DNA of 60,420 bases from Rhodoplanes sp. (GTDB lineage Bacteria; Pseudomonadota; Alphaproteobacteria; Rhizobiales; Xanthobacteraceae), in contig NZ_JACAAX010000041.1 in assembly GCF_013377085.1 (NCBI RefSeq), positions 1 through 60,420 of the forward strand. The letters run 5' to 3'. Position numbers and translations under genes: made by a program. The notes beneath the pieces are model-generated. The model saw only the letters and a list, made by a program, of their open reading frames with translations. It was not told where the DNA came from and did no database searches. Below are positions 6,915 to 28,936 of this stretch, one piece after another (the first letter of the stretch is position 1; each line of letters begins with the position of its first letter).

Positions 6915-7598
6915 GCTCTATTCCCGGTCGACGCGCGTGCCACATGACGACGCGACGATCGACGCGACAGTCTGCGATGTCGAACCGCATGCATGTCCCG
7001 GACCACTGTCTGCGCTGGCGTCGTCGCTCGGCATGACCCGCGCGGCCGCCGGCGCGAGACGCTCTCGCCGGACTTTCGAAGACGACCGCGTCGTCATGCG
7101 TCGCACCCGACACCTAAAACAAGCAAAGCGTTCGGCGCCACATCAGACGGCCGAGATCGATGCCCTGAACCGATAGACCATTCGCCTAGTCAATGCAACT
7201 ATTGCGGGTTGCGTCGCGCTTCAACTCTCGCCCGGCGCGCAGGTCGCGCAGGCGCTCGGCGTGGTTCCTCTGGCGCGAAGGCGCGGTGGAGGCGGGCCCG
7301 GCGCGCGGTACGAAGCCGTTTCGGCTCGATTCGAAGCATGCCTCCGGCCTCCCGGCGCCGGCGACTCTGCTCACGCTGCTGCCGCGATCGGGCCGCCGAG
7401 CAAGGCTGGCCCGATCAAAAAGTGCTGGACAGATCGGCGCATTAGGTCATATATCTGGCCTAACGGCACTTGGCTCCTCACCCCGGAGGTGCTCCGGCGT
7501 CGGAACTGGCGACGCAAGGCCGGCCGGTGTCGACAAACCCGCTTCGAGCGAGCATCGAACGGGTTATCTTTACGGACGCACGAACAGCCGGAGCCGTC
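6915..7598. other. Divergent control region between gntR and the CoA-transferase operon
   Basis: 684 bp without a convincing gene. The left part is GC-rich. The right part (7420-7480) is AT-richer and carries the palindromic operator at 7442-7463. Weak frames here lack domains and ribosome sites. Confidence 0.6.
7442..7463. promoter_or_regulatory. Palindromic operator upstream of CoA-transferase operon
   Basis: An inverted repeat with arms TTAGGTCA and TGGCCTAA around TATATC (7 of 8 positions pair). It is 136 bp upstream of ATG 7599. The core AGGTCATATATCTGGCCT matches the sites at 19986 and 22662, so it is a regulon operator candidate, probably for the divergent GntR protein (inferred). Confidence 0.7.
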
Positions 7599-8879
7599 AT
7601 GGCCACCACAGCAGAATCACCTCGGGCCGCCGGATCGGCGGACAGCTCGCAGCCGCAGCGGGTCGGTCCGCTCGCCCATATCCGGGTGCTCGACATGGGC
7701 CGCATCATGGCGGCGCCCTGGGCGACGCAGATCTTCGCCGATCTCGGAGCGGATGTCATCAAGATCGAGCGTCCGGGCGTCGGCGACGATACCCGCGGCT
7801 GGGGGCCGCCGTTCCTGAAGAGTCCGGATGGCGCCACGGCAGGCGACGCCGGCTACTTCCTGTCCGTCAATCGCGGCAAGCGATCCGTCACGGTCGACAT
7901 CACCAAGCCCGAGGGGCAGGAGATCATTCACCGGCTCGCCGCGACCGCGGACGTCGCCATCGAGAACTTCAAGGCGGGAACGCTGGAGCGATACCGGCTC
8001 GATGCCGCGTCGCTGCGGGCCGTCAATCCGCGGCTGGTCTACTGCTCGGTCACCGGCTTCGGTCAGGACGGCCCGCGCCACGAGCAGGCGGCCTACGACT
8101 TCGCCATCCAGGCGATGGGCGGCCTGATGAGCGTGACCGGCGAGCGCGACGACCTGCCCGGCGGCGGGCCGCAGAAGGTCGGCCTGCCGATCGTCGACAT
8201 CATGACCGGGATGTATGCCGCCGTCGCCGTGCTGGCGGCCCTGACGCGCCGCGCCGAGACCGGGCAGGGCGAGACGATCGATCTCGCGATGCTCGATGTG
8301 CAGGCGGCCGTGCTGGCCAATCAGGCGATGAACTGGATGCTGTCCGGCAGGACGCCCAAGCGCGGCGGCAACCGCCATCCGAACATCCAGCCGCAGGACG
8401 TGTTTCCCTGCGCCGACGGGCATCTGGTGCTGGCGGTCGGCAATGACGGGCAGTTCGCCCGGCTGTGCAGCGTGCTCGAGCGGTCCGAATGGGCGAGTGA
8501 CGAGCGTTTCAGCAGCAACGCCGCGCGCGTTCGCAACAACGCGGTGCTGACCGCGCTGCTGAGCGAGCGCTTCCGCATGGTCGGCCGCGCCGAGCTGATC
8601 AAGGCGCTCGACGCCGTGGGCGTGCCTTGCGCGCCCATCAACGACATCCCGCAGGTGTTCGACGACCCGCAGATCCGTCATCGCGAGATGCGGCGCGACC
8701 TGCCGCATCCGGTCGCCGGAACGGTGCCGCAGGTCGTCAGCCCGCTGCGTTTCGCGGACGAGCCGCTGCGCTTCGATCGCGCGCCGCCGCTGCTGGGCCA
8801 GCACACGCGCGACATTCTCGCCGAGCTCGGGCTCGACGATGCCGCGCAGAGCGAGCTCGCCGCGCGCGGCGTGACCTGA
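7599..8879 (+). CDS. CaiB/BaiF family (class III) CoA-transferase
   Basis: A 426-aa protein of usual family length. After about 24 variable residues come the typical ADLGADVIKIERP-type segment, SVNRGKRSVTVDI and VDIMTGMYAA, whose Asp is the likely catalytic aspartyl-CoA residue. It moves CoA from a donor thioester (often succinyl-CoA) onto a carboxylic acid, which would activate the substrate of this island. Start ATG 7599 follows CGGAG; the longer frame from 7470 is non-conserved. It is first in a rightward operon of five genes. Confidence 0.9.
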   Translation: MATTAESPRAAGSADSSQPQRVGPLAHIRVLDMGRIMAAPWATQIFADLGADVIKIERPGVGDDTRGWGPPFLKSPDGATAGDAGYFLSVNRGKRSVTVDITKPEGQEIIHRLAATADVAIENFKAGTLERYRLDAASLRAVNPRLVYCSVTGFGQDGPRHEQAAYDFAIQAMGGLMSVTGERDDLPGGGPQKVGLPIVDIMTGMYAAVAVLAALTRRAETGQGETIDLAMLDVQAAVLANQAMNWMLSGRTPKRGGNRHPNIQPQDVFPCADGHLVLAVGNDGQFARLCSVLERSEWASDERFSSNAARVRNNAVLTALLSERFRMVGRAELIKALDAVGVPCAPINDIPQVFDDPQIRHREMRRDLPHPVAGTVPQVVSPLRFADEPLRFDRAPPLLGQHTRDILAELGLDDAAQSELAARGVT

Positions 8880-8905
8880 CGCGACCGAGCCCGACACGGC
8901 TGACG

Positions 8906-8969
8906 GCTTGCACGACCGAAGGCCTGCACGACCGAAGCCTTGCACGAGCGAAGGCTTGCACGAGCGACC
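8906..8969 (+). repeat. Four tandem 16-bp repeats
   Basis: Four back-to-back copies of a 16-bp unit, GCTTGCACGACCGAAG, with a few changes (copies at 8906, 8922, 8938, 8954). They fill the gap between the CoA-transferase stop and the next start codon, just before the ribosome site AAGGA. Confidence 0.85.
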
Positions 8970-8980
8970 AAGGATTGCCG

Positions 8981-9583
8981 ATGCCCCGCATCCCTCTCCC
9001 CGATCCGGCCGACATGACGGCCGAGCAACGCGCCGTGCACGACTCCGTGGTGTCGGGTCCGCGCGGAAAGATGATCGGCCCGCTGCGCGCCGTCATCCAC
9101 AGTCCGGAGCTCGCCCGCCGCTGGTCGGCGCTCGGCGAGTTCCTGCGCTACTCCACCTGTCTGCCGCCACGGCTCAACGAGCTGGCCATCATCGTCGTCG
9201 GCCGGCGCTACACCAGCCAGGTCGAGTGGTGGGCCCATTCGGCCGCCGCGGCCAAGGCCGGCCTCTCGGTCGAGGTGATCGAAGCGATCCGGCTCGGCGA
9301 ACCGCCGGCGTTCTCCGACCAGGACGAGGCCGCGGTGTACGAGTTTGCGCGTCAGCTCGTGCAAGCCGGCCAGGTGGACGAGGCGACCTATCGGGCCGTC
9401 GAGCGTCGCTTCGGCGCGCGCGGAGTCGTCGAGCTGGCCGGCGTCGTCGGCTACTACACGATGGTGTCGATGACGCTCAACGTGCACGACATCCCGCTGC
9501 CGGACGGTGTCGCCACCCAGCTCTCCCCGCTGCCGCAATCGAACGGGCTGCTGACGCCGTTGCCGGCGGCCCGCCCCCGCTGA
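8981..9583 (+). CDS. Carboxymuconolactone decarboxylase (CMD) family protein
   Basis: A 200-aa protein with the CMD/AhpD fold pattern: RLNELAIIVVGRRY, then VEWWAHSAAAAKAGL, then a late VVELAGVVGYYTMVSMTLN. It lacks the CxxC pair of AhpD peroxidases, so it is closer to the decarboxylase/lactonase-like branch; the exact reaction is unknown. Start ATG 8981 has AAGGA upstream. It lies between the CoA-transferase and a LigI-like hydrolase, so it may act on the ring or lactone form of the substrate before or after CoA activation (inference). Confidence 0.8.
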   Translation: MPRIPLPDPADMTAEQRAVHDSVVSGPRGKMIGPLRAVIHSPELARRWSALGEFLRYSTCLPPRLNELAIIVVGRRYTSQVEWWAHSAAAAKAGLSVEVIEAIRLGEPPAFSDQDEAAVYEFARQLVQAGQVDEATYRAVERRFGARGVVELAGVVGYYTMVSMTLNVHDIPLPDGVATQLSPLPQSNGLLTPLPAARPR

Positions 9584-9594
9584 GAGGAAACGCC

Positions 9595-10497
9595 ATGCCG
9601 GGATTCGACATCGTCGCGGCGCCGCCCGTGTCGGCACCGACCGTCGCGCTGCCGCCGGGCGCCTGCGACGCGCACAGCCACGTCTTCGGCCCCTTCGATC
9701 GGTTCCCGCCGCTGCAGGCCTCGGTCTATGCCTTGCCGGACGCGTCGCCGGACGTGCATGCGGCAACACGGGCAAAGCTCGGCGTCGCCTATGGGGTGCT
9801 CACCCAGCCGGCGCCCTACGCCAACGATCCCGCGGCCATGCTCGATGCGGTCCGTCGCTCCGGCGGCGCCTTGAAGGCGGTCGCCGCCACCGACAGCGCG
9901 ATCGACGATGCGACGCTCGAGGCATGGCGCGCCGGCGGCATCTGCGGCCTGCGGTTCGTCGAGATGCGGGCGCCCGGCGGCCAACGCTATCCGGGCAGCG
10001 TCGGGGCCGACCAGCTCGTCGCGCTGGCGCCGCGCATGCGCGCCCTCGGTCTCCATGCACAACTTTGGGCGAATGCGGCCGACCATGCCACGCTGCTGCC
10101 CGATCTGCTGCGTCTCGGCGTGCCGCTGGTGCTCGATCACATGGGCTGCCCGGATCCGGCACGCGGCCCGGGCGACCCGAGCTTCGGCGCGATCCTCGAC
10201 GCGATGAAGACCGGTCAGGTGTGGGTGAAGCTGTCGGTGTGCCGGGTGTCGCGCACCCAGCCCGACTATCCCGACGTGAAGCCCCTGCACGACGCCCTGG
10301 TGGCGGCCATGCCCAACCGGCTCGTCTGGGGCTCCGACTGGCCGTATGTTCGGCTCGATCCGTCGCCCGACGCCGGCCGGCTGCTCGACCTGTTCGCGGG
10401 CTGGCTCGGCGACGACGCCCTGCGGCATCGGATTCTCGTCGAGAACCCCGCCGCGCTGTATGGATTCCCCGGCCCGAGCAAGCACGCCGCGGCCTGA
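9595..10497 (+). CDS. Amidohydrolase-2 family, 2-pyrone-4,6-dicarboxylate hydrolase-like
   Basis: A 300-aa TIM-barrel amidohydrolase. Metal-site motifs are visible: DAHSHVFGP near residue 23-30 (HxH), LDHMG in the middle and WGSDWPYVR near the C-terminus. This arrangement is shared with LigI-type lactone hydrolases and related decarboxylases. It probably hydrolyses a lactone or C-C/ester bond in the substrate. Start ATG 9595 follows GAGAGGAAA. The gap to the preceding CMD gene is 11 bp, indicating co-translation. Confidence 0.8.
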   Translation: MPGFDIVAAPPVSAPTVALPPGACDAHSHVFGPFDRFPPLQASVYALPDASPDVHAATRAKLGVAYGVLTQPAPYANDPAAMLDAVRRSGGALKAVAATDSAIDDATLEAWRAGGICGLRFVEMRAPGGQRYPGSVGADQLVALAPRMRALGLHAQLWANAADHATLLPDLLRLGVPLVLDHMGCPDPARGPGDPSFGAILDAMKTGQVWVKLSVCRVSRTQPDYPDVKPLHDALVAAMPNRLVWGSDWPYVRLDPSPDAGRLLDLFAGWLGDDALRHRILVENPAALYGFPGPSKHAAA

Positions 10498-10519
10498 GCC
10501 ACTCAATCGGAGACACGCG

Positions 10520-12043
10520 ATGTCCGACGCCGAAGCGGCCCTGCCGACCACCGTCCCGATCGCCGTGGTCGGCGCCGGAACCATGGGAAGCGGCATCGCG
10601 CTCGTCGCCGCCAAGGCCGGACACAAGGTGCTGCTGCACGATGCCAACGCCGAGGCGATCCAGCGCGGCCTCGATGGGCTGCGCAGCGGGCTCGACCGCC
10701 TGGTCGCGAAAGGCAAGATGACGGCCGCCGAACGCGACGCGCAGCTCGGCCGCATCGCGCCGACCCCGGATGTCGACGCCGTCGCGCCCGCCGGGCTGGT
10801 GATCGAGGCGATCATCGAGGACTTCGGCATCAAGCGCGATCTGTTCCGGCGGATCGAAGCCGCCGTCGCGCCTGATGCCATTCTGGCCACCAACACGTCG
10901 TCGCTGTCGGTGACGGCCCTGGCGGCCGTGCTGTCGCGGCCCGAGCGGTTCGTCGGCGTCCACTTCTTCAATCCGGCCCCGATCCTGCCGCTGGTGGAGA
11001 TCGTCAGCGGCCATCTCACCGCGCCGGCTGTCGCCGCGACGGCGTTCGCCACCTGCCGGGCCTGGGGCAAGACGCCCGTCCACTGCCGCTCGACCCCCGG
11101 ATTCATCGTCAATCGGGTCGCCCGGCCGTTCTACGGCGAAACGCTGCGCCTGCTGACCGAAGGCGCCGCCTCCCCGGCGACGCTCGATGCCATCCTGCGC
11201 GAGGCGGGCGGGTTTCGCATGGGCCCCTGCGAGCTGATGGATATGATCGGGCACGACATCAACTACGCGGTGACCCGGACCGTCTATGAGCTCCTGTTCC
11301 AGGATCCGCGATACAAGCCCTCGCTCGTGCAGAAGGAGCTGGTGGACTCCGGGCTCCTCGGCCGCAAGAGCGGACGCGGATTCTTCGACTATGCCGACGG
11401 CGCGACCGCGCCGGCGCCGGACGACGCACCGGCCGGCCCAAGGCCGGCGCGCGCCGTGATCGAGGGCGATCTCGGTCCGGCGGCGGCGCTTGCGGCGCTC
11501 GCCGACGCGGCCGGGCTGACGGTCGAGCGTCGCGACGGCACCGGCCTCGTCCGGCTCGACGGCGCCACGCTGGCCCTGACCGACGGACGCTGCGCCACCG
11601 AGCGCATGGCGGAGGCGGGTGGCCCATCCGTTCTGTTCGACCTCGCCCTGGATTACGGCACGGCCAAGCGCGTGGCGATCGCCCGCGCCGATCAGGCGCC
11701 GGCGACCGCGACGGCAGCGGCCGCGGGCTTCTTCCAGGCGCTCGGCAAGTCCGTGTCGGTGCTGGACGATGCGCCCGGCCTCGTCGTGATGCGCACCGTC
11801 GCGATGATCGTCAACGAGGCCGTCGACGCCGCGCACCAACAGGTCGCCAGCATCGACGACATCGACCTGTCGATGCTCAAGGGCGTCAACTATCCGCGCG
11901 GGCCGCTGGCCTGGTGCGATTCCCTCGGCGCCGCGCGGGTCGCGACCGTCATCGACTCGCTCGGGCGCACTTACGGGGAGGATCGCTATCGCGCCTCGCC
12001 GCTGCTCAAGCGTCACGCCCTGACGGGGCGCTCGTTCCACTGA
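10520..12043 (+). CDS. 3-hydroxyacyl-CoA dehydrogenase (PaaC/PaaH-like, two-domain)
   Basis: A 507-aa protein. The N-terminal Rossmann domain has VVGAGTMGSGIA (about 17-28); the substrate motif NTSSLSVT and HFFNPAP follow, then a first C-terminal HAD domain, and a second, diverged copy in the last 150 residues (VNEAVDAAHQQVAS, LKGVNYPRGPLAW). This length and double C-terminal domain fit the PaaC/PaaH subgroup. It oxidises a 3-hydroxyacyl-CoA to 3-oxoacyl-CoA with NAD. Start ATG 10520 follows CGGAGA, 22 bp after the amidohydrolase stop. Confidence 0.9.
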   Translation: MSDAEAALPTTVPIAVVGAGTMGSGIALVAAKAGHKVLLHDANAEAIQRGLDGLRSGLDRLVAKGKMTAAERDAQLGRIAPTPDVDAVAPAGLVIEAIIEDFGIKRDLFRRIEAAVAPDAILATNTSSLSVTALAAVLSRPERFVGVHFFNPAPILPLVEIVSGHLTAPAVAATAFATCRAWGKTPVHCRSTPGFIVNRVARPFYGETLRLLTEGAASPATLDAILREAGGFRMGPCELMDMIGHDINYAVTRTVYELLFQDPRYKPSLVQKELVDSGLLGRKSGRGFFDYADGATAPAPDDAPAGPRPARAVIEGDLGPAAALAALADAAGLTVERRDGTGLVRLDGATLALTDGRCATERMAEAGGPSVLFDLALDYGTAKRVAIARADQAPATATAAAAGFFQALGKSVSVLDDAPGLVVMRTVAMIVNEAVDAAHQQVASIDDIDLSMLKGVNYPRGPLAWCDSLGAARVATVIDSLGRTYGEDRYRASPLLKRHALTGRSFH

Positions 12044-12067
12044 ACCCACGGATCCGGACACAGCGAC

Positions 12068-12859
12068 ATGACGGACTCTTCAGGCGCAAAGCCGCCGGTG
12101 ACCAGCCGGTGCGACGGCAAAGGCGCAGCCATCATCACGATCGACCGGCCGGAGCGCCGCAATGCCTTGAACCTGGAGGTGAAGGGCCTGATCGCCGACG
12201 CCGTGGAGGCGCTGACGGCGGACGAGACGGTCGACGTGATCATCCTCACCGGCGCCGGCGGGTGCTTCGTCGCCGGGACCGATCTGGCCGAGATGGCGAC
12301 CATGACGCCGCAGACCCATGTCGCACTACAGACCGACCGGGTGTTCAACGTCCTGCGCCATTGCCCCAAGATCCTGATCGCGGCGGTCGAAGGCTACGCG
12401 CTGGGCGGCGGCTGCGAGCTCGCGCTGTGCTGCGACCTGATCATTGCCGGGGAGGATGCCGCGTTCGGCCAGCCGGAAATCCGCGTCGGCATCATGCCGG
12501 GCGCCGGCGGATCGCAGCGGCTGCTGCGCGCCATCGGCAAGTACCGCGCCATGAAGCTGATGCTGACCGGCGAGCCGGTGCGGGCGCCCGATGCGCTCGC
12601 CATGGGCATGATCTCCGAGGTGGCGCCGAAAGGAGCCGCGCTCGAGCGTGCGCTGGCGCTCGCCAAGACGATCCTCGCCATGCCGCCGCTCGCCGTCCGC
12701 GCCATCAAGGAGGTCGTCACGCTCGGCCAGGACGCGCCGCTGGAAACGGCGCTGGCGCTGGAACGCAAGGCCTTCGTGATGCTGTTCGACAGCGCCGACC
12801 AGAAGGAAGGCATGCAGGCCTTCCTGGAGAAGAGGAAGCCGACCTACCAGGGGTGCTGA
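12068..12859 (+). CDS. Enoyl-CoA hydratase/isomerase family protein
   Basis: A 263-aa crotonase. Both catalytic glutamates of true hydratases are present: Glu117 in GGGCELAL and Glu137 in QPEIRVGIMPGAGG. The oxyanion-hole segment is near residue 66-72 (CFVAGTDL). It adds water to a 2-enoyl-CoA, giving the substrate of the dehydrogenase just upstream (24-bp gap). It is last in the rightward operon and is followed by a palindromic intergenic repeat. Confidence 0.92.
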   Translation: MTDSSGAKPPVTSRCDGKGAAIITIDRPERRNALNLEVKGLIADAVEALTADETVDVIILTGAGGCFVAGTDLAEMATMTPQTHVALQTDRVFNVLRHCPKILIAAVEGYALGGGCELALCCDLIIAGEDAAFGQPEIRVGIMPGAGGSQRLLRAIGKYRAMKLMLTGEPVRAPDALAMGMISEVAPKGAALERALALAKTILAMPPLAVRAIKEVVTLGQDAPLETALALERKAFVMLFDSADQKEGMQAFLEKRKPTYQGC

Positions 12860-12871
12860 GCCGCGCGGTGC

Positions 12872-12944
12872 TCATTCCCGCGAAAGCGGGAATCCAGGAG
12901 CCACGCCCGGCGAGGCTCTGGGTCCCCGCTTTCGCCGGGACGAG
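12872..12944. repeat. Palindromic intergenic repeat (REP-like)
   Basis: A perfect hairpin ATTCCCGC-gaaa-GCGGGAAT (12874-12893) and, 28 bases later, an imperfect hairpin GTCCCCGC-tttc-GCCGGGAC (12922-12941), joined by CCAGGAGCCACG. This paired-hairpin layout is common between genes in Hyphomicrobiales genomes. It sits between two converging genes and may also end transcription. Confidence 0.75.
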
Positions 12945-13004
12945 CGGATTTGGTGGGCGATTCATCTCCAATAAAAATCTGTTTAGCCGCGGGGATCGGA
13001 GCAG

Positions 13005-13670
13005 CTACTTGCTCTCCGGCCCGGTCCAGCCTTCGCCGCCGGGGGGGCGCTGCAGCATCGGACGCTCGAAGATTTCGCCGAGCGCGGCGTAGAACGGCCC
13101 GCCCAGGCGGGCGATCGGCCGCATCTTCACGCTGTCGACGCGGCGGCCGTCGAAGATCTCCGGCGAGAGATGGAAGGCGACGACCTCGCCGATATACAGC
13201 GTGTTGATGCCGCTGCCGAGCACCACCACCTGGTCGAGACGGCACTCCATCTGCACCGGCGACAGCGCGATGCGCGGCGGCTTGACGTGCCGGCTCGGCA
13301 GCAGCGGAATGCCGAGCGCCTCCGCCTCGCTGACCTCGGGCGGGAAGTTCTGGCCGCTGCGATGCATCAGCTCCATGGTCGCTTCGGTGGCGACATTGAC
13401 GACGAACTCGCCCGTCGCCTTGATGTTGCGGGCCGTGTCCTTGATGGCGTCGCCGGGCGCGCCGGCGCGCTTGGCGATGTTCATGGCCAGCATCGGCGGC
13501 GTGGTGGCGACGTAGTTGTAGGAGCTGAACGGCGCCACATTGACGAGGCCGTCCGGGTTGACCGTGGTGATCCACGCCACCGGACGCGGCACGACGCAGC
13601 CGACGATCAGGCGATAGGCCGCCTCGGTGTCGAGGTTTTTGGCGTCGATGGTGACGAAGTCGTCGGGCAT
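13005..13670 (-). CDS. Flavin reductase-like FMN-binding protein
   Basis: A 221-aa split-barrel protein: ATEAAYRLIVGCVVPRP-type opening, NVAPFSSYNYVATTPPMLA (FMN phosphate contacts), NFPPEVSEAEALGIPLLPS in the middle and a late VVAFHLSPEIFDGRRVD. The family reduces FMN with NAD(P)H or simply binds it. Here it could feed a flavin monooxygenase, but none is visible in the island. It is the most downstream member of a leftward group starting at the MFS gene, although the gaps (84-136 bp) leave separate promoters possible. Confidence 0.8.
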   Translation of the reverse strand: MPDDFVTIDAKNLDTEAAYRLIVGCVVPRPVAWITTVNPDGLVNVAPFSSYNYVATTPPMLAMNIAKRAGAPGDAIKDTARNIKATGEFVVNVATEATMELMHRSGQNFPPEVSEAEALGIPLLPSRHVKPPRIALSPVQMECRLDQVVVLGSGINTLYIGEVVAFHLSPEIFDGRRVDSVKMRPIARLGGPFYAALGEIFERPMLQRPPGGEGWTGPESK

Positions 13671-13754
13671 GGCGCAATCCGGTGGGGGCGCGAGGAATAC
13701 GAGGGCGAGCGGCCGGCGGCCGCCACGGGCGAGGCCTTGGTCAGCCCGCCTTGA

Positions 13755-14720
13755 TCACCGGGCCTTGATCTGCGCGGTGGCGATGAGGCGGGCCATGCGG
13801 TCGGCATCCAGCTTCAGGTAGGCGGCGAAGTCCTTGGCGTCGAGATAGAACACCTCGCTGCCTTGCGAAACGATCTTCTGGCGCACGGCCGGCATGCTCA
13901 TCACGGTGGCGAGCGTCGCGCCGAGCTTGTCGAGAACCGCCCGGGGTGTCTTCGCCGGTGCCGATATGCCGTACCAGGTGCCGATGTCGAAGCCCTTCAG
14001 GCCCAGCTCGTCGAGCGTCGGGACGTTAGGGAGCTGGTCGGCCCGCTTCAGGGTCGTCACGGCGAGCGCGCGCAGCGCGCCGGACTCGATGTGCTGCAGC
14101 AGCGGCGGCGCGTTCAGGAAGCCGAGATCCATCTGGCCGGAGACGAGGTCGGTCGTCGCCGGCGCGACGCCCGTGTAGGGAACATGCACCATGGTGGCGC
14201 CGGTCATCTGCTTGAACAGCTCGGCGGCGAGGTGGGGCTGGCTGCCGATGCCCACCGAGCCGAAGTTCAGCGTGTCCGGATGGGCCTTGGTGTAGGCGAC
14301 GAGCTCGGGCACGCTGCGGATCGGCAGCGAGGCGCGGACCACCAGCACGTTGGGGACATTGGCCACCATCGCCACCGGCGCGAAATCGGCGATCCCGTCA
14401 TAGGTCACCTTCGACAGCAGCGGCATGATGGCATGGGCCGTGGCGGTCGACAGATAGAGCGTGTGTCCGTCCGGCTCGGCATGCGCCACGAAGCTCGCGC
14501 CGATCGTGGTGCCGGCACCCGGCTTGTTGACGACGATCACCTCCTTGCCGAGCACGTCGGCCATGGCCGCGGCGATCGTCCGGGCCAGGAGGTCGGCCGA
14601 GCCGCCGGCCGCATACGGATTGACGAGCTGGATGGTGGTGCGCGGGAAGTCCTGCGCCTGTGAGGTACCGATCAGTGCGCCGGCCGTCAGCGCCGCGACG
14701 AGAAGCCCCTTCGTGATCAT
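13755..14720 (-). CDS. Bug-type TTT-family periplasmic receptor
   Basis: A 321-aa protein. A signal peptide (about 1-22, ending SQAQ) is followed by the Bug hallmark YAAGGSADLLARTIA, then PGAGTTIGASFVA, LNFGSVGIGSQPHLAAELFK and MVHVPYTG. Such proteins bind carboxylates outside the inner membrane and normally deliver them to TctA/TctB permeases. No TctA/B gene is in this window. The C-terminal LDAKDFAAYLKLDADRM is standard. Confidence 0.92.
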   Translation of the reverse strand: MITKGLLVAALTAGALIGTSQAQDFPRTTIQLVNPYAAGGSADLLARTIAAAMADVLGKEVIVVNKPGAGTTIGASFVAHAEPDGHTLYLSTATAHAIMPLLSKVTYDGIADFAPVAMVANVPNVLVVRASLPIRSVPELVAYTKAHPDTLNFGSVGIGSQPHLAAELFKQMTGATMVHVPYTGVAPATTDLVSGQMDLGFLNAPPLLQHIESGALRALAVTTLKRADQLPNVPTLDELGLKGFDIGTWYGISAPAKTPRAVLDKLGATLATVMSMPAVRQKIVSQGSEVFYLDAKDFAAYLKLDADRMARLIATAQIKAR

Positions 14721-14856
14721 TGTTTCCCCCGTGATGTCCTGCCTTGACGGCTTTTCGGGCTTGTTGGGGCCCTGGATGTCTCAGTCCCCGACGGCAACCC
14801 GTCGGCATCGATGCCTTTCTGTCGCGCCCACAATCGGGCGAATCACCCGCTCCGGC

Positions 14857-15828: not shown

Positions 15829-15892
15829 CCTCCCTGAGCTCGTCGGCGGTCCGCCTGGACGGCGCCGTGTCGCCGTCGCCGACGAGCGCTGA

Positions 15893-16741
15893 TCACGGCA
15901 GAGACCCGATCCAGTTCGCCAGCGCGTCGACCACGGCCTTCGGCTGCTCGGGGATGAGGGCGTGGCTGGCGTTCGGGATCACGGCGATGGTGACGCGCGT
16001 GCCGAACTCGTCCTTCATCTCGTTGCGCTTGGCCGCCGGCTTGAACGGATCCTGCTCGGCCTGGAGATCGAGCAGCGGCGCCGTGCCGCCCGACCACCAC
16101 TCGCTCTGCTTCGTCGCGGCCACGGCCGCGCGCTGGGCATCGCGGACGCCCGGATGCCAGCCGTCGAGCCACACCCGCGGATCGTTGCCGGGCGCGAAGA
16201 AGCCGAACCGCAGGGCCGCGAGCCGCTCGTCCTCGGGCAACGACAGATCGCCGGCCTTGGTCACTGCGACGGTCAGCTCCGGGGCGTATTGTTTCGCTGC
16301 CGCGGCCGCGATGACGACCCCGCGCACCCGGGCCGGATGGTCGACGGCGGTCATCCGCGCGACCCAATTGCCGTAGGCGTGCCCGACGATGACGGCCCGG
16401 CCGCCGCCCACGGTCTCGATCACGGTCGCCACGTCGCGGGCGAAATCGTGCAGGCTGATGCCGGTCATCGGGCCCTTACTGCGGCCGATGCCGCGCGGCT
16501 GCGGACGCAGCACGCGAAAGCCGCGGGCGACCAGCCCGTCCGCCACGGCGTCGTAGTCTTCGGAGTCGCGGGCGAGCGACGGCAGCAGCACGATCGCCGG
16601 CCCGGTTCCGTCGACGATCACGTCGATCTCGACATCCGCGTACCGGACGGTCTCCCGGGTGCGTTCCGCGGCGGCCACGCTGGTCGTGAGCAGGGCCAGC
16701 GTGGCGGTCAAGATCGACAGCGACAAAACGAGGCGGTTCAT
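15893..16741 (-). CDS. Secreted alpha/beta hydrolase lacking the nucleophile Ser
   Basis: A 282-aa protein with a signal peptide (about 1-25). The fold follows the alpha/beta hydrolase plan: oxyanion-type VLLPSLARDSEDY, PRGIGRSKGP, the nucleophile elbow and a late NASHALIPEQ that would hold the catalytic His. At the elbow the sequence is VGHAYG, so the usual Ser is Ala (residue 122, codon GCC). It is either inactive as an esterase or works by another route. Start ATG 16741 follows AAAGGA; upstream in-frame ATGs lack this. Confidence 0.8.
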   Translation of the reverse strand: MNRLVLSLSILTATLALLTTSVAAAERTRETVRYADVEIDVIVDGTGPAIVLLPSLARDSEDYDAVADGLVARGFRVLRPQPRGIGRSKGPMTGISLHDFARDVATVIETVGGGRAVIVGHAYGNWVARMTAVDHPARVRGVVIAAAAAKQYAPELTVAVTKAGDLSLPEDERLAALRFGFFAPGNDPRVWLDGWHPGVRDAQRAAVAATKQSEWWSGGTAPLLDLQAEQDPFKPAAKRNEMKDEFGTRVTIAVIPNASHALIPEQPKAVVDALANWIGSLP

Positions 16742-16813
16742 GCGGTCGCGTCCTTTCGTCATCGGATCCATGGATGCAGCGAGAATGCGTTGCATCCGAT
16801 GCTTCAGAGCTGA

Positions 16814-17485
16814 TCAGCGAACAGGCTGGACCTCATCCGGTGCTTTCGTCGCGGCACTCGGCACCACGCGATGACCGCGCTCTGCATCGAGCGCCTTCAT
16901 GATCTCGGGCAACCTCTCCTCGGCGGTCCGAGTGCACTGCTCGTAGATGCTGCCACCATGACTGTCGATCGCGACCACCAGCGGACCGAGGTCGGCGACC
17001 CGCAGCCTGACCAGGCGATAGTGCGAGATGAGGTCGTCCCAGGCGACGGCGACGACCGACTGGATGGCGTCCGTCAGCAGCGGGCAGCCACCCCCGAGGA
17101 ACGACAGGTAGACGCACCCGACTTCCTGCATCGCTTGCGTGCAGGCCATGTCGAGGCCGCCCTTGCCGCCGATCAGCCGCAGCCGATAGTGGCGAATGAG
17201 CCCCGGCATCAGGGAATTGAACCGCGTGCTGGTCGTCGGGTTCATGTAGAGAACCTCGAACCGGCCGTCGGTCTCCTGGCTGTAGCTGCCGAGGTGGAAC
17301 AGCGTGTCCCCGGTGATGTCGATCGGCAGCGGCCGCCCGGCCTCCATGTACTCGATGATGCGGCGGTGAGTGGGCAGGCCCGCCGTGATGGTGATGTCGC
17401 CGGTCAGGGTGACGAGGTCGCCGACGACCAGCTCCCTGACGCTCTGTTCCGTCATCGGGAGCGTGAGTGACTTGATGGCTGGCAT
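16814..17485 (-). CDS. Fumarase/tartrate dehydratase, beta subunit
   Basis: A 223-aa protein matching the C-terminal (swivel) half of class I fumarases and L(+)-tartrate dehydratase beta. Recognisable segments are LVTLTGDITITAGLPTHRR, TRFNSLMPGLIRHYRL, IGGKGGLDMACTQAMQEVGC and LGGGCPLL. It pairs with the alpha subunit encoded 12 bp upstream. The pair hydrates or dehydrates a dicarboxylic acid (fumarate, tartrate, mesaconate or a relative). It is too small to be a complete fused fumarase, which confirms the two-subunit form. Confidence 0.9.
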   Translation of the reverse strand: MPAIKSLTLPMTEQSVRELVVGDLVTLTGDITITAGLPTHRRIIEYMEAGRPLPIDITGDTLFHLGSYSQETDGRFEVLYMNPTTSTRFNSLMPGLIRHYRLRLIGGKGGLDMACTQAMQEVGCVYLSFLGGGCPLLTDAIQSVVAVAWDDLISHYRLVRLRVADLGPLVVAIDSHGGSIYEQCTRTAEERLPEIMKALDAERGHRVVPSAATKAPDEVQPVR

Positions 17486-17497
17486 GGTGTGGCGCCC

Positions 17498-18367
17498 CTA
17501 CTCGAATGTCTCGATGCGGCCATCGTCGTAGATGCGCGCGCTCGCCCGACGGTTGATCCAACAGTTGAAGCACACGGCGACCGGGATGAAGCCGTGCGAG
17601 GCGGCATAGTCTATGTGGACGGCCAGCGCGGTGGTGTCGCCGCCCGTGCCCATCGGACCGAAGCCGGTCTTGTTCACGGCGTCGAGCAGGCGGGCCTCCA
17701 TGTCGGCGAGGATCGGCTCGGGATTGACGAGGCCGAACGGCCGCAGCGACGCCTGCTTGGCGAGCTTGGCGCAATAGTCGAACGTGCCGCCGATGCCGAC
17801 GCCGATCACCACCGGGGGGCAATGCTGCGAGCCGGCCTTGAGCACGCAGTCCATGACGTAGCGCTCGATGACGTCGAGGGTCGGGAAGCTGAAGATCTCC
17901 AGCGCGGCCCAGCGGCCGGCGCCGAGCCCCTTCGGCGAGCAGGTGATCTCGACATAGTCGGCGCCGTCGACCAGCTCGAAGCTGACCAACGGCATGCTCT
18001 TGCCCTTGTAGCCGCGTTCCAGCGTCAGCGGATTGGTCACGTGCTTGAGGATGGGCGGCTGGATGGTCGCGACGAGATGGTCGAACCCGTCGGAGATGGC
18101 TTGCCGGATATTGCCCTGCAGGCGCGCCGCTGTGCCGATCTTGACGAAATAGGTCGGGATGCCGGCGTCCGAGCAGAGATGGCGGCTCGCCTCCTCGGCC
18201 CGGCGGGCGCTGCCGAGCATCATCGACAGCACGTTCTGGGCGACCGGATTCGTCTCGGCCTCCCGGGCACGCGCCAGCGCCGCCTTGGTATCCTCCGGCA
18301 CCTTCTTCAGGGCGCTTCCGTAAAGCTCGGCGGCGACGGTTTTCACCTGGTCGTAAGTGACTGGCAC
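17498..18367 (-). CDS. Fumarase/tartrate dehydratase, alpha subunit (Fe-S)
   Basis: A 289-aa protein matching the N-terminal half of class I fumarases. Cysteines suited to the 4Fe-4S cluster are Cys65 (HLCSDAG), Cys183 (QHCPPVVIGVGIGG) and Cys266/269 (AVCFNCW). The TGGDTTALAVHIDYA stretch is also typical. The first gene of the alpha-beta pair, it lies 202 bp downstream of the MFS permease gene on the same strand. Fumarase and tartrate dehydratase cannot be told apart from sequence alone. Confidence 0.9.
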   Translation of the reverse strand: MPVTYDQVKTVAAELYGSALKKVPEDTKAALARAREAETNPVAQNVLSMMLGSARRAEEASRHLCSDAGIPTYFVKIGTAARLQGNIRQAISDGFDHLVATIQPPILKHVTNPLTLERGYKGKSMPLVSFELVDGADYVEITCSPKGLGAGRWAALEIFSFPTLDVIERYVMDCVLKAGSQHCPPVVIGVGIGGTFDYCAKLAKQASLRPFGLVNPEPILADMEARLLDAVNKTGFGPMGTGGDTTALAVHIDYAASHGFIPVAVCFNCWINRRASARIYDDGRIETFE

Positions 18368-18569
18368 GACTGACGTCCTTCCATCTCGCCGAGAACCGAA
18401 AAGGAACGTGGATCAATGAGCTGGTCGGTCGACGGCGCCTTGCATGCCGCTGGTGACGGCGATGTTGAACCGTGTCCGCCGGCGCTGCACGCCGATCGGG
18501 CAGGATGCCGGCGAGCGCGAGACGACTGCGTTCGCCGGATGCGGTGTGGTGCCGGCGGATGCCGCGCCG

Positions 18570-19901
18570 TCAGGCGGGCTTGGCCGCCTCGCTGCGGGCC
18601 GCCGGAATTCCGGCCAGGATCACGACGGCTCCGATGAACATCAGGGCCGCATAGTAATACTGTCCGACGGCGAGCGATCCGGTGGCTGTCGCCATCCAGC
18701 CGACGATCCACGGGCTGAAGAAGCTGCCGATGCCGCCGAGCGTGGTGATCAACGCGATGCCCCCGGCGCGCGCCGGACCGGTCAGGAACGACGACGGCAT
18801 GGTCCAGAAGGGTCCCATGGCGCCCAGGGTGCCGACTGCCGTCATGGTCAGCGCCACCATGGAGAGGGTCGTGCTCGTCGGGACGAACGGCAGCATGGCC
18901 CATCCGGCGGAAGCGAGCAACGCCGGTGCGCAGGCGTGCCAGCGGCGCTCGAGCGATCGATCGGAATGGAGTGCGATGAGTTGCTGGGCCGTGACTGCGA
19001 CGATGAACGGAATCGCGGACAGAAGCCCGACCGTGAACACGTCCTTGATGCCGGAGTTCCTGATGATGGTCGGCAGCCAGAAGAAGATGCCGCCCGTGCT
19101 CGCCATCAGGGCTGTCGCCAGGCCGACCAGGATATAGAAGCGGGGCGCTTTCAACGCGGCACCGAACGAATGGTGGCTCTTGGTGCCCTGCGCCTTGGCC
19201 TCCGCCTCGAGGTCAGCGATCACCAGGGACTTTTCCTCGGCGGTGAGCCAAGTGGCGTCATGCGGCCTGTCGGTCAGGTAGAAGTAGGCCACCACGCCAC
19301 AGGCGACCGAGGGGAGCCCCTCGACGATGAACAGCCACTGCCAGCCGGCCAAACCACCCACGCCGGCCAGGCTGGTCATGATGGCCCCCGAGATCGGCCC
19401 CCCGATGACGCCGGTGATGCCGATGGACGCCATGAACATGGCGGTCAGGCGGGCGCGGCGGCGCGCCGGCGTCCACAACGTCAGATAGTACAGGATGCCG
19501 GGAAAGAATCCGGCTTCGGCCGCGCCGAGCAGGAAGCGCAACGTGTAGAGGTGCCAGTCGGTGCTGATCAGGGCGAGGGCAGCCGCACAAAGCCCCCATA
19601 CCACCATGATGCGCAGCAGCGTCTTGCGAACGCCGATCCTTTCGAGGACCAGGTTGCTGGGGACCTCGAACAGGACATAGCCGAGAAAGAAGATGCCGGC
19701 ACCGAACCCGTAGACCGCTTCGGTGAAATTCAAGTCGTGAAGGAACTGCAGCTTGGCGAACCCGACATTGGTCCGGTCGAGAAACGCCAGCAGGTAGCAG
19801 ATCGTCAGGAACGGGATGAGCCGCAAGTAGATCTTGCGATAGGCGGCATCGGCCTCGTTGACGACTCGAGGGGCAGCTTCGACGGCAGGTATGGCGGCCA
19901 T
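18570..19901 (-). CDS. MFS permease, anion:cation symporter (ACS) family
   Basis: A 443-aa protein with about 12 membrane segments. ACS features: LLAFLDRTNVGFAKL in the first helix region, LGYVLFEVPSNLVLERIG, RFLLGAAEAGFFPGILYYL, and a large central loop before helix 7. The family carries organic anions such as tartrate, phthalate, galactonate or 4-hydroxyphenylacetate. Start ATG 19901 has GGAGGAAGG directly upstream; the ATG at 19919 lacks a site. The operator pair at 19963-20005 lies 62-104 bp upstream. Confidence 0.9.
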   Translation of the reverse strand: MAAIPAVEAAPRVVNEADAAYRKIYLRLIPFLTICYLLAFLDRTNVGFAKLQFLHDLNFTEAVYGFGAGIFFLGYVLFEVPSNLVLERIGVRKTLLRIMVVWGLCAAALALISTDWHLYTLRFLLGAAEAGFFPGILYYLTLWTPARRRARLTAMFMASIGITGVIGGPISGAIMTSLAGVGGLAGWQWLFIVEGLPSVACGVVAYFYLTDRPHDATWLTAEEKSLVIADLEAEAKAQGTKSHHSFGAALKAPRFYILVGLATALMASTGGIFFWLPTIIRNSGIKDVFTVGLLSAIPFIVAVTAQQLIALHSDRSLERRWHACAPALLASAGWAMLPFVPTSTTLSMVALTMTAVGTLGAMGPFWTMPSSFLTGPARAGGIALITTLGGIGSFFSPWIVGWMATATGSLAVGQYYYAALMFIGAVVILAGIPAARSEAAKPA

Positions 19902-19962
19902 GCCTTCCTCCAGGTGCAAACGGTGGGATGTTCACGACGGGGGCATGGCGGTGATCGCCAGA

Positions 19963-20005
19963 AAGGTCACTGTCATGACCTTATCAGGTCATAGAGCTAG
20001 CTGAA
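19963..20005. promoter_or_regulatory. Two operator sites upstream of the MFS permease gene
   Basis: Site A (19963-19982) is a perfect inverted repeat AAGGTCA-ctgtca-TGACCTT. Site B (19986-20005), AGGTCATAGAGCTAGCTGAA, matches the operators at 7444 and 22662 position by position. Both use the AGGTCA half-site with a 6-bp spacer and lie upstream of the MFS start. Site B could also affect the divergent GST gene, 269 bp away. Confidence 0.7.
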
Positions 20006-20273
20006 GCGTTCAAGATTGTCAACTCCGTGTTCGGTACGGATGGAGCGAATTCGCCTGGTGGAGTAGCCTTTGGCTGTCGTGTTCCAACCCTCTGTCTCCT
20101 CGGCGGATTCGACGATCCGCCTTCACCGATGCCGGACCGTCCGTCGACCGCACCCGCCCGGAGATCGCGGCGCCTCGAGCCGGGGCGCCCTCTGATCCGG
20201 ACGCCTTTGAACCGAGCCGTTCTCCGTCCGGGTGGGGCCGTCGAAACCGTCATCGCCAAGCAGGGCCTGTCCC

Positions 20274-20882
20274 ATGAAACTGCACTGGTCTCCCCGCTCC
20301 CCGTTCGTCCGCAAGGTGATGCTGTTCGCCCATGAAACAGGGCTGGTGGACAAGCTCGAGTGCCACCGCACCGTCGTGGCGATGACGAAGCCGAATGCGG
20401 AGCTCTTGCCCGACAATCCCCTGAACAAGATCCCGACGCTGATCCTGGACGACGGCTCGCCGCTCTACGACTCGGTCGTCATCTGCCAGTATCTCGACGG
20501 CCTGCACGCGGGACCCAAGCTGTTCCCGACCGAGCCCAAGGCCTACTGGACGGCGATGCAGCGGTGCTCGCTGGGCGACGGCCTGCTCGACATGCTGCTC
20601 CTGTGGCGCAACGAGCGCGAACGCAGCCACCCGGATCCGGCCTATCTGAGCGCCTATGCGGTGAAGTTCGACGCCTCGCTGGCCAACCTCGAAAAGGAGG
20701 CCGACGCGCTCGCCGCGACGCCGTTCGGCATCGGCCATATCGCCATCGGTTGCGCACTGTCCTACACCGACTTCCGCTTTCCCGACCTCGCATGGCGGCC
20801 GAGCCACCCGAAGATCGCGGCCTGGCTCGCCGACTTCGTGAAGCGCCCGTCGGCCAAGGCGACCGAAGCGCGCGACGGCTGA
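20274..20882 (+). CDS. Glutathione S-transferase family protein
   Basis: A 202-aa protein. The N-terminal thioredoxin-like domain begins KLHWSPRSPFVRKVM (Ser in SPRSPFVRK as the likely glutathione-activating residue) and has NPLNKIPTLIL and SVVICQYLD for glutathione binding; the C-terminal helical domain follows from about 85. Start ATG 20274 gives the normal GST N-terminus, though the ribosome site is weak. It lies between the MFS gene (divergent) and the thiolase (convergent), and could serve in detoxification or thioether cleavage. Confidence 0.85.
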   Translation: MKLHWSPRSPFVRKVMLFAHETGLVDKLECHRTVVAMTKPNAELLPDNPLNKIPTLILDDGSPLYDSVVICQYLDGLHAGPKLFPTEPKAYWTAMQRCSLGDGLLDMLLLWRNERERSHPDPAYLSAYAVKFDASLANLEKEADALAATPFGIGHIAIGCALSYTDFRFPDLAWRPSHPKIAAWLADFVKRPSAKATEARDG

Positions 20883-20915
20883 GCGGCGGCCGACCGCGCG
20901 GGCTCCGAGACAAAG

Positions 20916-20951
20916 AAAAGGACCGACAGGCTTTCGCCCGCCGGTCCTTTT
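20916..20951. terminator. Bidirectional intrinsic terminator
   Basis: A perfect 10-bp inverted repeat AAAAGGACCG ... CGGTCCTTTT with a 16-base loop lies between two converging stops (GST and thiolase). The flanking A- and T-runs give a U-tract in either direction. Confidence 0.85.
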
Positions 20952-20982
20952 CGCAGGCGGCCCGGAGGGGCAGCCTGCGCGG

Positions 20983-22125
20983 TCAATTCTTCAGGATCGT
21001 CACGGCGCAGTTGCCGCCGGCGCCCAGCACGTGCGCGAGCCCCACCTTGGCGTCCGCCACCTGCCGCTTGCCCGACTGGCCGCGCAACTGCGAGATGATC
21101 TCGACCACCTGGCCGAGATGCGAGGCGCCGACCGGCTCGCCCTTGCTGATCAACCCGCCGCTCATGTTCACCGGCATGTCGCCGCCGATCTCGGTGCGGC
21201 CCTCGTCGATCAGTCGTCCTGCCTCTCCGAGGCCGCAGAGACCGAGCTCCTCGTAGATCTCGATCTCGCAGAAGGCATCGGTGTCCTGGACCTCGAAACA
21301 ATCGATGTCCTTCGGCCCGAGGCCGGCCCGCTCGAAGGCCTGCTTGGCCGTCACCTCGGTCGGACCCGGGTTGTTCGCCGTCGCGCTCATGCTGTCGGCC
21401 GGGCAGCGGAAGTCGGCGGAGAAGCGGGCGATGCTGTGGCAGCAGGCCGCGATGGTGATCGGGTGTCCGCCGATCTTCGCCGCCCGCTCGCGCGAGGCGA
21501 CGACCACGGCCGCCGCGCCGTCGTTGGGCGCACAGATTTCGAGCCGGCGGATCGGATCGCAGACCAGCGGCGAGTTGATGATCTCCTCGAGGCTGAACTC
21601 CTTCTGATACATGGAGTTCGGATTATGCACGCTGTTGCGATGGTTCTTGTGGGCGACCTTGGCGATGTGCAGGTCGGTGGTGCCGAACTCGTACATGTGC
21701 CGGCGCGCCCGCATCGACCAGTAGCTCGGATTGAGCGACATGCCCATCTCGACCTGCCACGGGCTGTAGATCATGCGCGGGTCCATGAAGCCGCGCGGCA
21801 TCTTCTCGGTTCCGAGGACGAGCACCAGATCGGCCTCGCCGGAGCGGATGGCGAGAACCGCCTGGCGCAGGGCGACGCCGCCGCTGGCGCAGGCCGCCTC
21901 GACGTCCACGATCGGGATGTCGGTGCTGCCGAGGCGCCGAAGGATGCGCGCCCCGGAGGTTGCCGGAAGATACATGCGCGACAGATAGGCGGCCTGGATG
22001 TCCCGCCACGCGACGCCCGCATCGGCGAGCGCGGCGGCGGCGGCGTAGGAGCCGATCTCCTCGTAGGTCTTGTCGAACCGGCCGAAGGGATGGATCCCGG
22101 CTCCTAGAATGACGACGTCGGACAT
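20983..22125 (-). CDS. Thiolase, SCP-x/non-canonical type
   Basis: A 380-aa thiolase-fold enzyme. The active Cys is Cys79 in VEAACASGGVALRQA. The second half has DIDCFEVQDTDAFCEIEIYEE-like organisation and ends with LAHVLGAGGNCAVTIL, as in SCP-x/lipid-transfer thiolases rather than the CxGxGxG ending of classical ones. It would cleave a 3-oxoacyl-CoA. The DUF35 gene is 13 bp upstream; such proteins commonly form complexes with these thiolases. Confidence 0.88.
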   Translation of the reverse strand: MSDVVILGAGIHPFGRFDKTYEEIGSYAAAAALADAGVAWRDIQAAYLSRMYLPATSGARILRRLGSTDIPIVDVEAACASGGVALRQAVLAIRSGEADLVLVLGTEKMPRGFMDPRMIYSPWQVEMGMSLNPSYWSMRARRHMYEFGTTDLHIAKVAHKNHRNSVHNPNSMYQKEFSLEEIINSPLVCDPIRRLEICAPNDGAAAVVVASRERAAKIGGHPITIAACCHSIARFSADFRCPADSMSATANNPGPTEVTAKQAFERAGLGPKDIDCFEVQDTDAFCEIEIYEELGLCGLGEAGRLIDEGRTEIGGDMPVNMSGGLISKGEPVGASHLGQVVEIISQLRGQSGKRQVADAKVGLAHVLGAGGNCAVTILKN

Positions 22126-22138
22126 GATCGAGAACCCC

Positions 22139-22579
22139 TCAGAGGCGCGGCGCGAACGCGAAGGCGACGACGTCCTCGCCGGCGGCCCCGGTGTGATGAA
22201 CGGAAATCTTCAGGCGCAGCGGCGTGCCGACCTTCAAGCTGTCGACGTCGCCCTCGATCGGAGACACGACCCGCAACCCGTCGGGCAGCTCGACGAGGCC
22301 GAGACCGAACGGCTTGAACGGCTCGGGGCCGCGATAGTCTCCCGGCGGCTTGTGGCGCACGACCGTGTAGGTCCACAGCTCGCCGTGGTCGGCGAGCGCG
22401 ACCGGGTCCATGTCGATGCCGCCGCAATTCGGGCAGATGGCGTTGCGGCCGAGCGTGACCTCGTTGCAGTGCCTGCAGCGGGAGCCCTGCAGCCGCACCT
22501 TGGCGAGATCGTCGAGCGGTTCCGTCAACAAGCCGTCGCGGATCGCCACCCTTTTCGGGGCCTGATGTTCAGTTGCCAT
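22139..22579 (-). CDS. DUF35 (zinc ribbon/OB-fold) thiolase partner
   Basis: A 146-aa protein: an N-terminal rubredoxin-like zinc ribbon (Cys35, Cys38, Cys49, Cys52) and a C-terminal OB fold (about 60-140) with YRGPEPFKPFGLGLVELP. Family members bind acyl-CoA and assist SCP-x thiolases or HMG-CoA synthases. The ATG at 22579 places the ribbon at the usual distance; an ATG at 22633 is also in frame. The operator at 22662-22681 precedes it. Confidence 0.88.
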   Translation of the reverse strand: MATEHQAPKRVAIRDGLLTEPLDDLAKVRLQGSRCRHCNEVTLGRNAICPNCGGIDMDPVALADHGELWTYTVVRHKPPGDYRGPEPFKPFGLGLVELPDGLRVVSPIEGDVDSLKVGTPLRLKISVHHTGAAGEDVVAFAFAPRL

Positions 22580-22661
22580 GCCTGCCACGCTCCCATGCGA
22601 GGAGCCGGTCGCGGACGCGAGGAGGTTCTTCACCGCGCCGCCGGCTCACCCTCGACCGAAT

Positions 22662-22681
22662 AGGACATAAAGCTAGCCTTT
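22662..22681. promoter_or_regulatory. Operator upstream of DUF35-thiolase operon
   Basis: AGGACATAAAGCTAGCCTTT, 83 bp upstream of the DUF35 start. It agrees with site B at 19986 at 14 of the first 16 positions and shares the AGG-CATA...CCT frame with 7444. It is the third member of the candidate regulon. Confidence 0.65.
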
Positions 22682-22857
22682 AGGTGTGTTGCCGTCAAGG
22701 CTCTCCTGGCGACTGCGGCCATGCGCGTGGCGGGGTTCCGCCCGCCGAGGGGGCGCAGCGTCGGCCGAATCATCGGCGAGACGGCGGAGGCTGGCAACCG
22801 GAGCCGGCATCGCGGTCGGGGCGTCGGGCCACCGCGTGCCGGCTGGCCCGGGCTTCG

Positions 22858-28793: not shown

Positions 28794-28936
28794 GAGGTGG
28801 ACTCGAGGCTTTTGTTTCAGGCAGATGGACGGTCCGCAGATGACGAGGCCGGGATCATCCACCGCGGACCCGAGCCGGGGGATGAGCGAGGGCGGCCTGG
28901 GCAGCCTCGCTCATCGTCGCATTTGCACGGCTGCCA

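Follow-up and report, generated by a model that had tools for sequence, protein, structure and literature searches.

Operators of the HutC subfamily of GntR regulators are palindromic, with GT-N4-AC as the norm, exceptions that include FarR, NagQ, and SdhR, and weaker extra half-site boxes 7–12 nt from the center (Suvorova et al. 2015, PMC4494728). For NagR/YvoA of Bacillus subtilis, the operator GTGGTCTAGACCAC carries two half-sites, one spanning −7 to −4 and the other +4 to +7, Arg48 contacts G-4 and Arg38 contacts G-5, and crystals of the DNA-binding domain contain pairs bound along the DNA next to the central pair (PMC4333415). Here we analyze a 60,420-nt stretch of a Rhodoplanes sp. genome (contig NZ_JACAAX010000041.1; hereafter the window), in which a GntR gene adjoins a catabolic island carrying four copies of a palindromic motif. 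From sequence comparison we consider it highly likely that the neighboring HutC-type GntR protein uses these copies as its operators and that they form a small, mostly local regulon.

The regulator and its proposed sites are listed below; the sites carry no strand. Bit scores for operators 1, 2a, and 3 and for the 7172 candidate come from the refined matrix described below, with a site threshold of 12 bits, and G001 and G002 denote R. tepidamans and Rhodoplanes elegans.

6168..6914, minus strand: GntR-family regulator, HutC type, proposed binder (PF00392, PF07702); its orthologues and the motif occur together
7172..7195: weak candidate autoregulatory site, GATAGACCATTCGCCTAGTCAATG, ~260 bp ahead of where the GntR gene starts; 8.7 bits
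7442..7463: operator 1, TTAGGTCATATATCTGGCCTAA; exact consensus match; 25.3 bits; counterparts in G001 and G002
19962..19983: operator 2a, AAAGGTCACTGTCATGACCTTA; exact consensus match; 16.0 bits
19984..20005: operator 2b, TCAGGTCATAGAGCTAGCTGAA; two mismatches to consensus
22660..22681: operator 3, ATAGGACATAAAGCTAGCCTTT; one mismatch to consensus; 24.8 bits; counterparts in G001 and G002

Proposed operator motif in Rhodoplanes

An earlier note on this DNA had reported three near-identical sites and, set apart from them, a related palindrome AAGGTCA-N6-TGACCTT. All four strings are present where it placed them (7444–7463, 19986–20005, 22662–22681, and, for the palindrome, 19963–19982); the separate status of the palindrome did not survive, since all four share the 6-bp spacer and belong to a single motif with the consensus WWARGYYA-N6-TRRCYTWW. 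Written as palindromes, operator 1 (7442) reads TTAGGTCA-TATATC-TGGCCTAA, operator 2a (19962) AAAGGTCA-CTGTCA-TGACCTTA, operator 2b (19984) TCAGGTCA-TAGAGC-TAGCTGAA, and operator 3 (22660) ATAGGACA-TAAAGC-TAGCCTTT.

The full consensus, derived from 82 loci that include the window's own, is confined to the island at high stringency: across 6,477,518 bases it matches exactly at 7442 and 19962, with one mismatch at 22660, and nowhere else at 0–1 mismatch. Two mismatches admit 29 further genome places, 19984 among them, and the reversed control gives 156 at ≤2. The random spread across the genome that the earlier note had named as a refuting outcome was therefore not seen. Operator 3 also holds the genome's single exact WWARGYTARCYTWW (22668–22681), which is the usual HutC register. 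The narrower pattern AGGWCATANAKCTRGCYKWW, fitted to the sites at 7444, 19986, and 22662, has those three as its only window matches at ≤3 mismatches (shuffled windows averaged 0.14 matches, and 1 of 100 reached three). Genome-wide at the same tolerance it matches 38 times (3 exact, 0 at one mismatch, 1 at two, and 34 at three) and its reversed control 71 times, so that only its exact matches stand out. The bare core AGGTCA-N6-TGACCT was rejected as a genome-wide search pattern: it is common in this GC-rich genome and not discriminating, with 329 places at ≤2 mismatches and 155 for the reversed control.

Two weaker or more distant candidates complete the genomic picture. The 7172 candidate has the fourth-best score in the window, where the next match reaches 8.0 bits, and lies inside a block conserved across three Rhodoplanes. 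A further site of 17.1 bits, at G000:C1:426342 (L207:9342), falls between two divergent TctC genes and is a plausible distant regulon target; the best gene matches in the genus are 40–43% identical and not clear orthologues. These divergent TctC receptor genes (G000:C1, L207:8291-10574) adjoin genes that by eye resemble a LIV-type ABC transporter.

Among five other Rhodoplanes genomes (G001–G005), GntR orthologues occur in two, G001 and G002 (88–89% identical); the best GntR matches in G003 and G004 are 40–42% identical, and G005 has no GntR match at 1e-40. The two genomes with the orthologue keep genes, GntR, and sites together, with sites at the same promoters as in the window: 15367, 29290+29312, and 31921 in G001, and 15595, 27462+27484, and 30073 in G002 (joined-stretch coordinates). 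Loss of the motif in relatives that keep the genes, which the earlier note had set out as evidence that would count against it, was thus not observed. Five of these eight sites (29290, 31921, 15595, 27462, and 30073) trained the genus matrix, which was built from nine Rhodoplanes sites; the three untrained ones are recovered by it at 21.7 bits (G001 15367), 24.5 bits (G001 29312), and 11.8 bits (G002 27484). In all three genomes the two sites ahead of operon 2 have a spacing of 22 bp, about two helical turns, and in G002, which has no MFS gene at this position, the pair directly precedes fumN.

Motif and regulator across Alphaproteobacteria

The GntR protein is of the HutC type (GntR + UTRA), with an N-terminal winged helix-turn-helix (PF00392, 59.5 bits against a cut-off of 27) and a C-terminal UTRA effector domain (PF07702, 64.3 bits against 23.8). 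In a comparison with named HutC equivalogs (HutC, PhnF, TreR, and others), it passes the cut-off of none of the 24 NCBIfam families listed, the best being TIGR02018 HutC at 89.9 bits against a cut-off of 220. Its closest solved chains are YvoA/NagR and then DasR, GntR/HutC repressors that share its domain pair. NagR Arg48 in the winged helix-turn-helix is kept as Arg56, whereas NagR Arg38 is replaced by Asp46, and the target genes of NagR differ.

We carried out the weight-matrix scan proposed in the earlier note on the best 80 of 165 relatives from a GntR alignment scan (51–89% identical, almost all Alphaproteobacteria); leaving out two Rhodoplanes records gave an out-of-sample set of 78 loci, some of them near-copies of each other. 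The nine-site matrix matches in 68 of the 78 loci at ≥15 bits, against a mean of 6.8 and a maximum of 39 for 300 column-permuted palindromic matrices, and in 55 of 78 at ≥20 bits, against a permuted mean of 0.9 and maximum of 10. When the spacer was varied from 0 to 14 bp, 6 bp gave matches in 69 of 78 loci and 14 bp in 30; other spacers gave 3–20. Refinement yielded 209 non-overlapping sites, with at least one in 75 of 82 loci. By a crude gene caller, 192 of these sites are intergenic, though called genes cover ~91% of the DNA, and 187 lie ≤350 bp from a gene start.

The regulon is spread across Alphaproteobacteria, and its commonest target elsewhere is GST, with a site ≤350 bp from the start in 40 of 55 GST-cluster genes. 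Corresponding counts are 17/31 for fumarase alpha, 6/8 for MFS, 11/25 for alpha/beta hydrolase, 26/74 for GntR itself, 26/87 for TctC, and 6/66 for CoA-transferase. In Bosea robiniae (L099:8351-9820), a histidine/aromatic ammonia-lyase-like gene, whose cluster has members in 5 loci, is divergent from GntR, and the DNA separating the two holds a motif site; targets therefore differ between lineages. In Sphingobium sp. SYK-6 (L132:6925-9878), a strain known for lignin breakdown, a TonB-dependent receptor gene adjoins GntR and GST and is preceded by two motif sites spaced 26 bp apart, making it a possible regulon member.

The half-site agrees with the regulator's residues. In the usual register it has A at −5 and R at −4, which is what loss of the first contacting arginine (Asp46) and retention of the second (Arg56) would predict. 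Fourteen of the 82 loci have a GntR without Arg56; there G occupies the −4 position in 12 of 104 halves, vs. 155 of 280, and the per-locus mean G frequency is 0.11 in these 14 loci vs. 0.53 in 58 loci. This correlation agrees with the published Arg–G rule (PMC4494728).

The motif is missing from the control loci without the regulator. No site of ≥12 bits was found in 15 target-gene loci from genomes judged to lack an orthologue (0/11 + 0/4), a comparison in which the target was just 42–49% identical in 8 of the 15 loci, one of the eleven loci lay in a genome with a 35%-identical GntR (G044), and GntR was sought to E ≤ 1e-60 only in the four. These four came from a class-wide search of 288 other genomes, which found GntR at E ≤ 1e-60 in none and GST at E ≤ 1e-50 in 4. 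Wider stretches of four GntR-less genomes reach at most 10.5 bits, and 13 paralogous HutC-type GntR loci likewise lack a site of ≥12 bits. The best single control, G018, keeps fumN, fumC, GST, CMD, and TctC, has no GntR match at 1e-40, and has no site >10.5 bits. The link to GntR, which the earlier note had offered as inference, now has behind it the 68 of 78 loci, the 15 controls, and a half-site that fits the NagR contact residues; direct binding we infer from these comparisons.

Several findings, together with those features of the controls, weigh against this assignment. Target-gene loci in GntR-bearing genomes, our own included, have a site of ≥12 bits in 9 of 16 cases and none in 7, a count in which one G002 site enters twice and several loci helped refine the matrix; three fumN paralogue loci in GntR-bearing genomes and the GST locus of G009 are without a site. 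TctC genes are present in six of the seven site-less GntR loci described below. Operator 2b is the weakest of the four sites, scoring 6.8 bits with the refined matrix, below threshold; with the genus matrix it scores 17.4 bits, but it helped train that matrix. The GntR gene's own promoter has the weak 8.7-bit candidate alone. The prevailing half-site geometry is not the GT-N4-AC that is the norm for HutC. The change at Arg56 occurred once on the tree, so the residue–base correlation, which we rejected as proof of binding, represents one event and proves little.

The seven site-less loci among the 82 form one clade of Roseomonas/Falsiroseomonas type (L110, L112, L113, L116, L120, L123, and L130). 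Their called genes include no member of the GST, CoA-transferase, or fumarase clusters, and a search there for a replacement palindrome found no convincing shared arm. The role of GntR in this clade may have changed.

Half-site arrangement and competing explanations

To describe the operator we counted WWARGYYA half-sites in the intergenic DNA of the 82 loci (290 halves under strict matching, ~0.11 pairs expected per spacing), noting that a half-site defined from 6-bp-gap sites somewhat favors gap 6. Strict convergent pairs are most numerous at gap 6, with 40; gap −2 has 9, gap 14 has 3, and gaps 28, 32, and 39 have one apiece. Direct repeats number 12 at offset 8 and ≤2 at other offsets, and there are three divergent pairs with gap −2 and one with gap 14. 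A looser count has the same convergent peaks (169, 81, and 36 at gaps 6, −2, and 14) and 100 direct repeats at offset 8. Its other peaks are convergent −7 (48), provisionally taken as AT-rich self-overlap; direct repeats at offsets 20 (29), 21 (22), and 22 (21), provisionally taken as tandem sites; direct repeats at offset 13 (32); and divergent −2 (26) and −1 (22).

A gap of −2 gives ARGYTARCYT, the register usual for HutC. The main pairing differs from the GT-N4-AC spacing with central YTAR of HutC-type operators, the strict 6-bp-gap pairs numbering 40 vs. 9 in the usual register. The operator is thus wider than the HutC norm and unusual for the family: it is palindromic like other HutC operators, and the distance of the family's extra box (PMC4494728) serves here as the main pairing. 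Relative to NagR, most sites would place the Arg48-type contact at −8. The SdhR operator (TCTTATGTCTTATATAAGACATAAGA, quoted in PMC4494728) is likewise a HutC-type palindrome with additional symmetry, and differs in sequence and box spacing. The GntR-family protein BusR also reads a widely separated bipartite motif, and differs in its tetrameric coiled-coil ruler, 22-bp separation, and RCK_C effector domain (PMC8517857).

A third half-site, 8 bp away from one of the other two, is present in many operators. Among 169 intergenic sites of ≥15 bits, 67 have a good one in the usual register within the spacer, against a mean of 26 and a maximum of 40 for permuted spacers (500 trials), and half-sites therefore tend to tile every 8 bp. 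We tentatively propose, at somewhat less than even confidence, that a HutC-subfamily repressor across Alphaproteobacteria acts on an 8-bp-tiled WWARGYYA array, with two overlapping dimers per main 6-bp-gap pair and the usual palindrome in the minority, and that it governs an uncharacterized catabolic and uptake regulon of GST, CoA-transferase III, TctC, and a two-subunit fumarase-like dehydratase.

The same protein could instead bind the 6-bp-gap palindrome as one dimer with widely spread arms, a possibility we take seriously while thinking it the less probable geometry. Sites lacking a good inner half-site are the majority (102 of the 169), and proteins of the YtrA subfamily of GntR have GT and AC far from the center (PMC4494728). 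A single spread dimer accounts less readily for the joint enrichment of gaps −2, 6, and 14 bp and of direct repeats 8 bp apart, or for third half-sites well above the permuted maximum. NanR is a GntR protein of the FadR type. In Escherichia coli it sets three dimers side by side on close repeats, which differ from the present sites in being direct GGTATA repeats (PMC8012715). Because NanR does so, and because pairs of the NagR DNA-binding domain flank the central pair in the crystal, adjacent dimers are the arrangement we favor.

It is improbable, in our judgment, that the palindrome is bound by another regulator, for example one of the CRP/FNR type, whose sites likewise set two short arms 6 bp apart, and that GntR is merely a neighbor. 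CRP/FNR consensus cores are TGTGA-N6-TCACA and TTGAT-N4-ATCAA. The arm spacing of AGGTCA-N6-TGACCT equals that of the first, the window contains a CRP-like gene at 28092 and a similar-looking one at 48174, and 6-bp spacing is unusual among HutC proteins. The core found here, RGYYA-N6-TRRCY, nevertheless matches neither consensus, and a global regulator should leave many sites, whereas the palindrome at 0–1 mismatch is restricted to the island. The 15 orthologue-less control loci are also without a site of 12 bits, and the half-sites pair in the usual HutC register too. The 15 gene clusters present in ≥12 loci, named from one member each with unclustered genes outside the count, comprise GntR, 13 metabolic or transport clusters, and cluster 4, whose representative has no Pfam match.

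Putative promoters, proposed target operons, and meaning of the regulon

Operation by the GntR protein would be consistent with where the sites lie. Putative promoters were read by eye and from promoter alignments of three Rhodoplanes species; a default sigma-70 scan detected none of the three:

7426..7454, plus strand: putative promoter of the CoA-transferase operon, TGGACA-N17-ATATAT, read from sequence
19994..20022, minus strand: putative promoter of operon 2, TTGACA-N17-TAGCTC, read from sequence
22670..22698, minus strand: putative promoter of operon 3, TTGACG-N17-TAGCTT, read from sequence

Across the three species, operon 1 keeps a CTGGACA block without a conserved exact −10 register; operon 2 has identical TTGACA and GCTAG blocks, the remainder of the −10 varying; and operon 3 keeps CTTGAC and GGCTAGC blocks. 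Operators 1, 2b, and 3 overlap the putative −10 beside this conserved sequence, and operator 2a lies just downstream of one. With three of four sites overlapping a putative −10, repression is the likely mode of regulation. It is very improbable that the three sites resemble one another only through a common promoter element (−10 TAGCTY) and chance: the AGCTA part at 19986 and 22662 does coincide with a putative −10, 17 bp from TTGACR, yet operator 1 sits on a promoter of opposite orientation without a TAGCTY −10, the 19962 palindrome begins only beyond the −10 on the downstream side, and the motif occurs in 68 of 78 other loci.

In the proposed mechanism, GntR dimers would sit side by side, 8 bp apart, on two WWARGYYA half-sites that converge across the 6-bp gap, over or beside the −10 region, where they would block RNA polymerase; a pathway metabolite bound in the UTRA domain would release the repressor. 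The units that would be affected include the following genes:

7599..8879, plus strand: CoA-transferase family III, first gene of operon 1 (PF02515)
18570..19919, minus strand: MFS permease, first gene of operon 2 (PF07690)
20232..20882, plus strand: GST gene, transcribed away from MFS with the operator pair between the two (Pfam GST)
20983..22125, minus strand: thiolase-like gene, second gene of operon 3 (Thiolase_C_1/Thiolase_N)
22139..22633, minus strand: DUF35/ChsH2-type OB-fold gene, first gene of operon 3 (PF01796)

The gene context described in the earlier note is borne out: GntR is divergent from the CoA-transferase gene, and the MFS and DUF35-thiolase units are downstream of their own sites. 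Its suggestion of a single regulon gains from G001 and G002, where each of the three promoters has a site, and from the further loci. We infer from strand and spacing that each unit is a single operon. In operon 1, CoA-transferase III is followed by amidohydrolase, 3-hydroxyacyl-CoA dehydrogenase (3HCDH), and enoyl-CoA hydratase (ECH) genes. Operon 2 likely continues beyond MFS with fumN/fumC (a two-subunit fumarase-like pair), an alpha/beta hydrolase, two TctC genes, and a flavin reductase. The regulon would comprise the CoA-transferase, MFS/fumarase/TctC, and DUF35-thiolase operons, possibly the divergent GST gene, and perhaps the distant TctC pair at G000:C1:426342. Against NCBIfam, the 3HCDH gene is just over the PaaH cut-off, and the CoA-transferase is nearest succinate-glutarate CoA-transferase but under its cut-off. 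The regulon probably serves to take up and degrade an organic acid or a ring-cleavage product.

Two side observations concern other genes. The two CRP/FNR-like genes of the window (28092-28862, minus strand; 48174-48875, plus strand) have similar N-termini, Pfam having been run on the first alone. An open reading frame at L172:1578-3020 (G000:C12) begins with LGLDLGSGSLGWC...GSRIFGDGR, which resembles a Cas9 RuvC-I motif.

Systems of this kind are already known; among open-licence PMC texts, mostly judged by title and the start of the abstract, we found no published description of this regulon or of its wide operator form. The analysis turns a motif read by eye into a regulon that can be tested and whose proposed regulator is named, and it indicates a second way for HutC-type proteins to arrange their half-sites, such that operator searches based on GT-N4-AC would miss 6-bp-gap sites. 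It also groups genes of an unassigned pathway into one unit, which would aid in finding the substrate.

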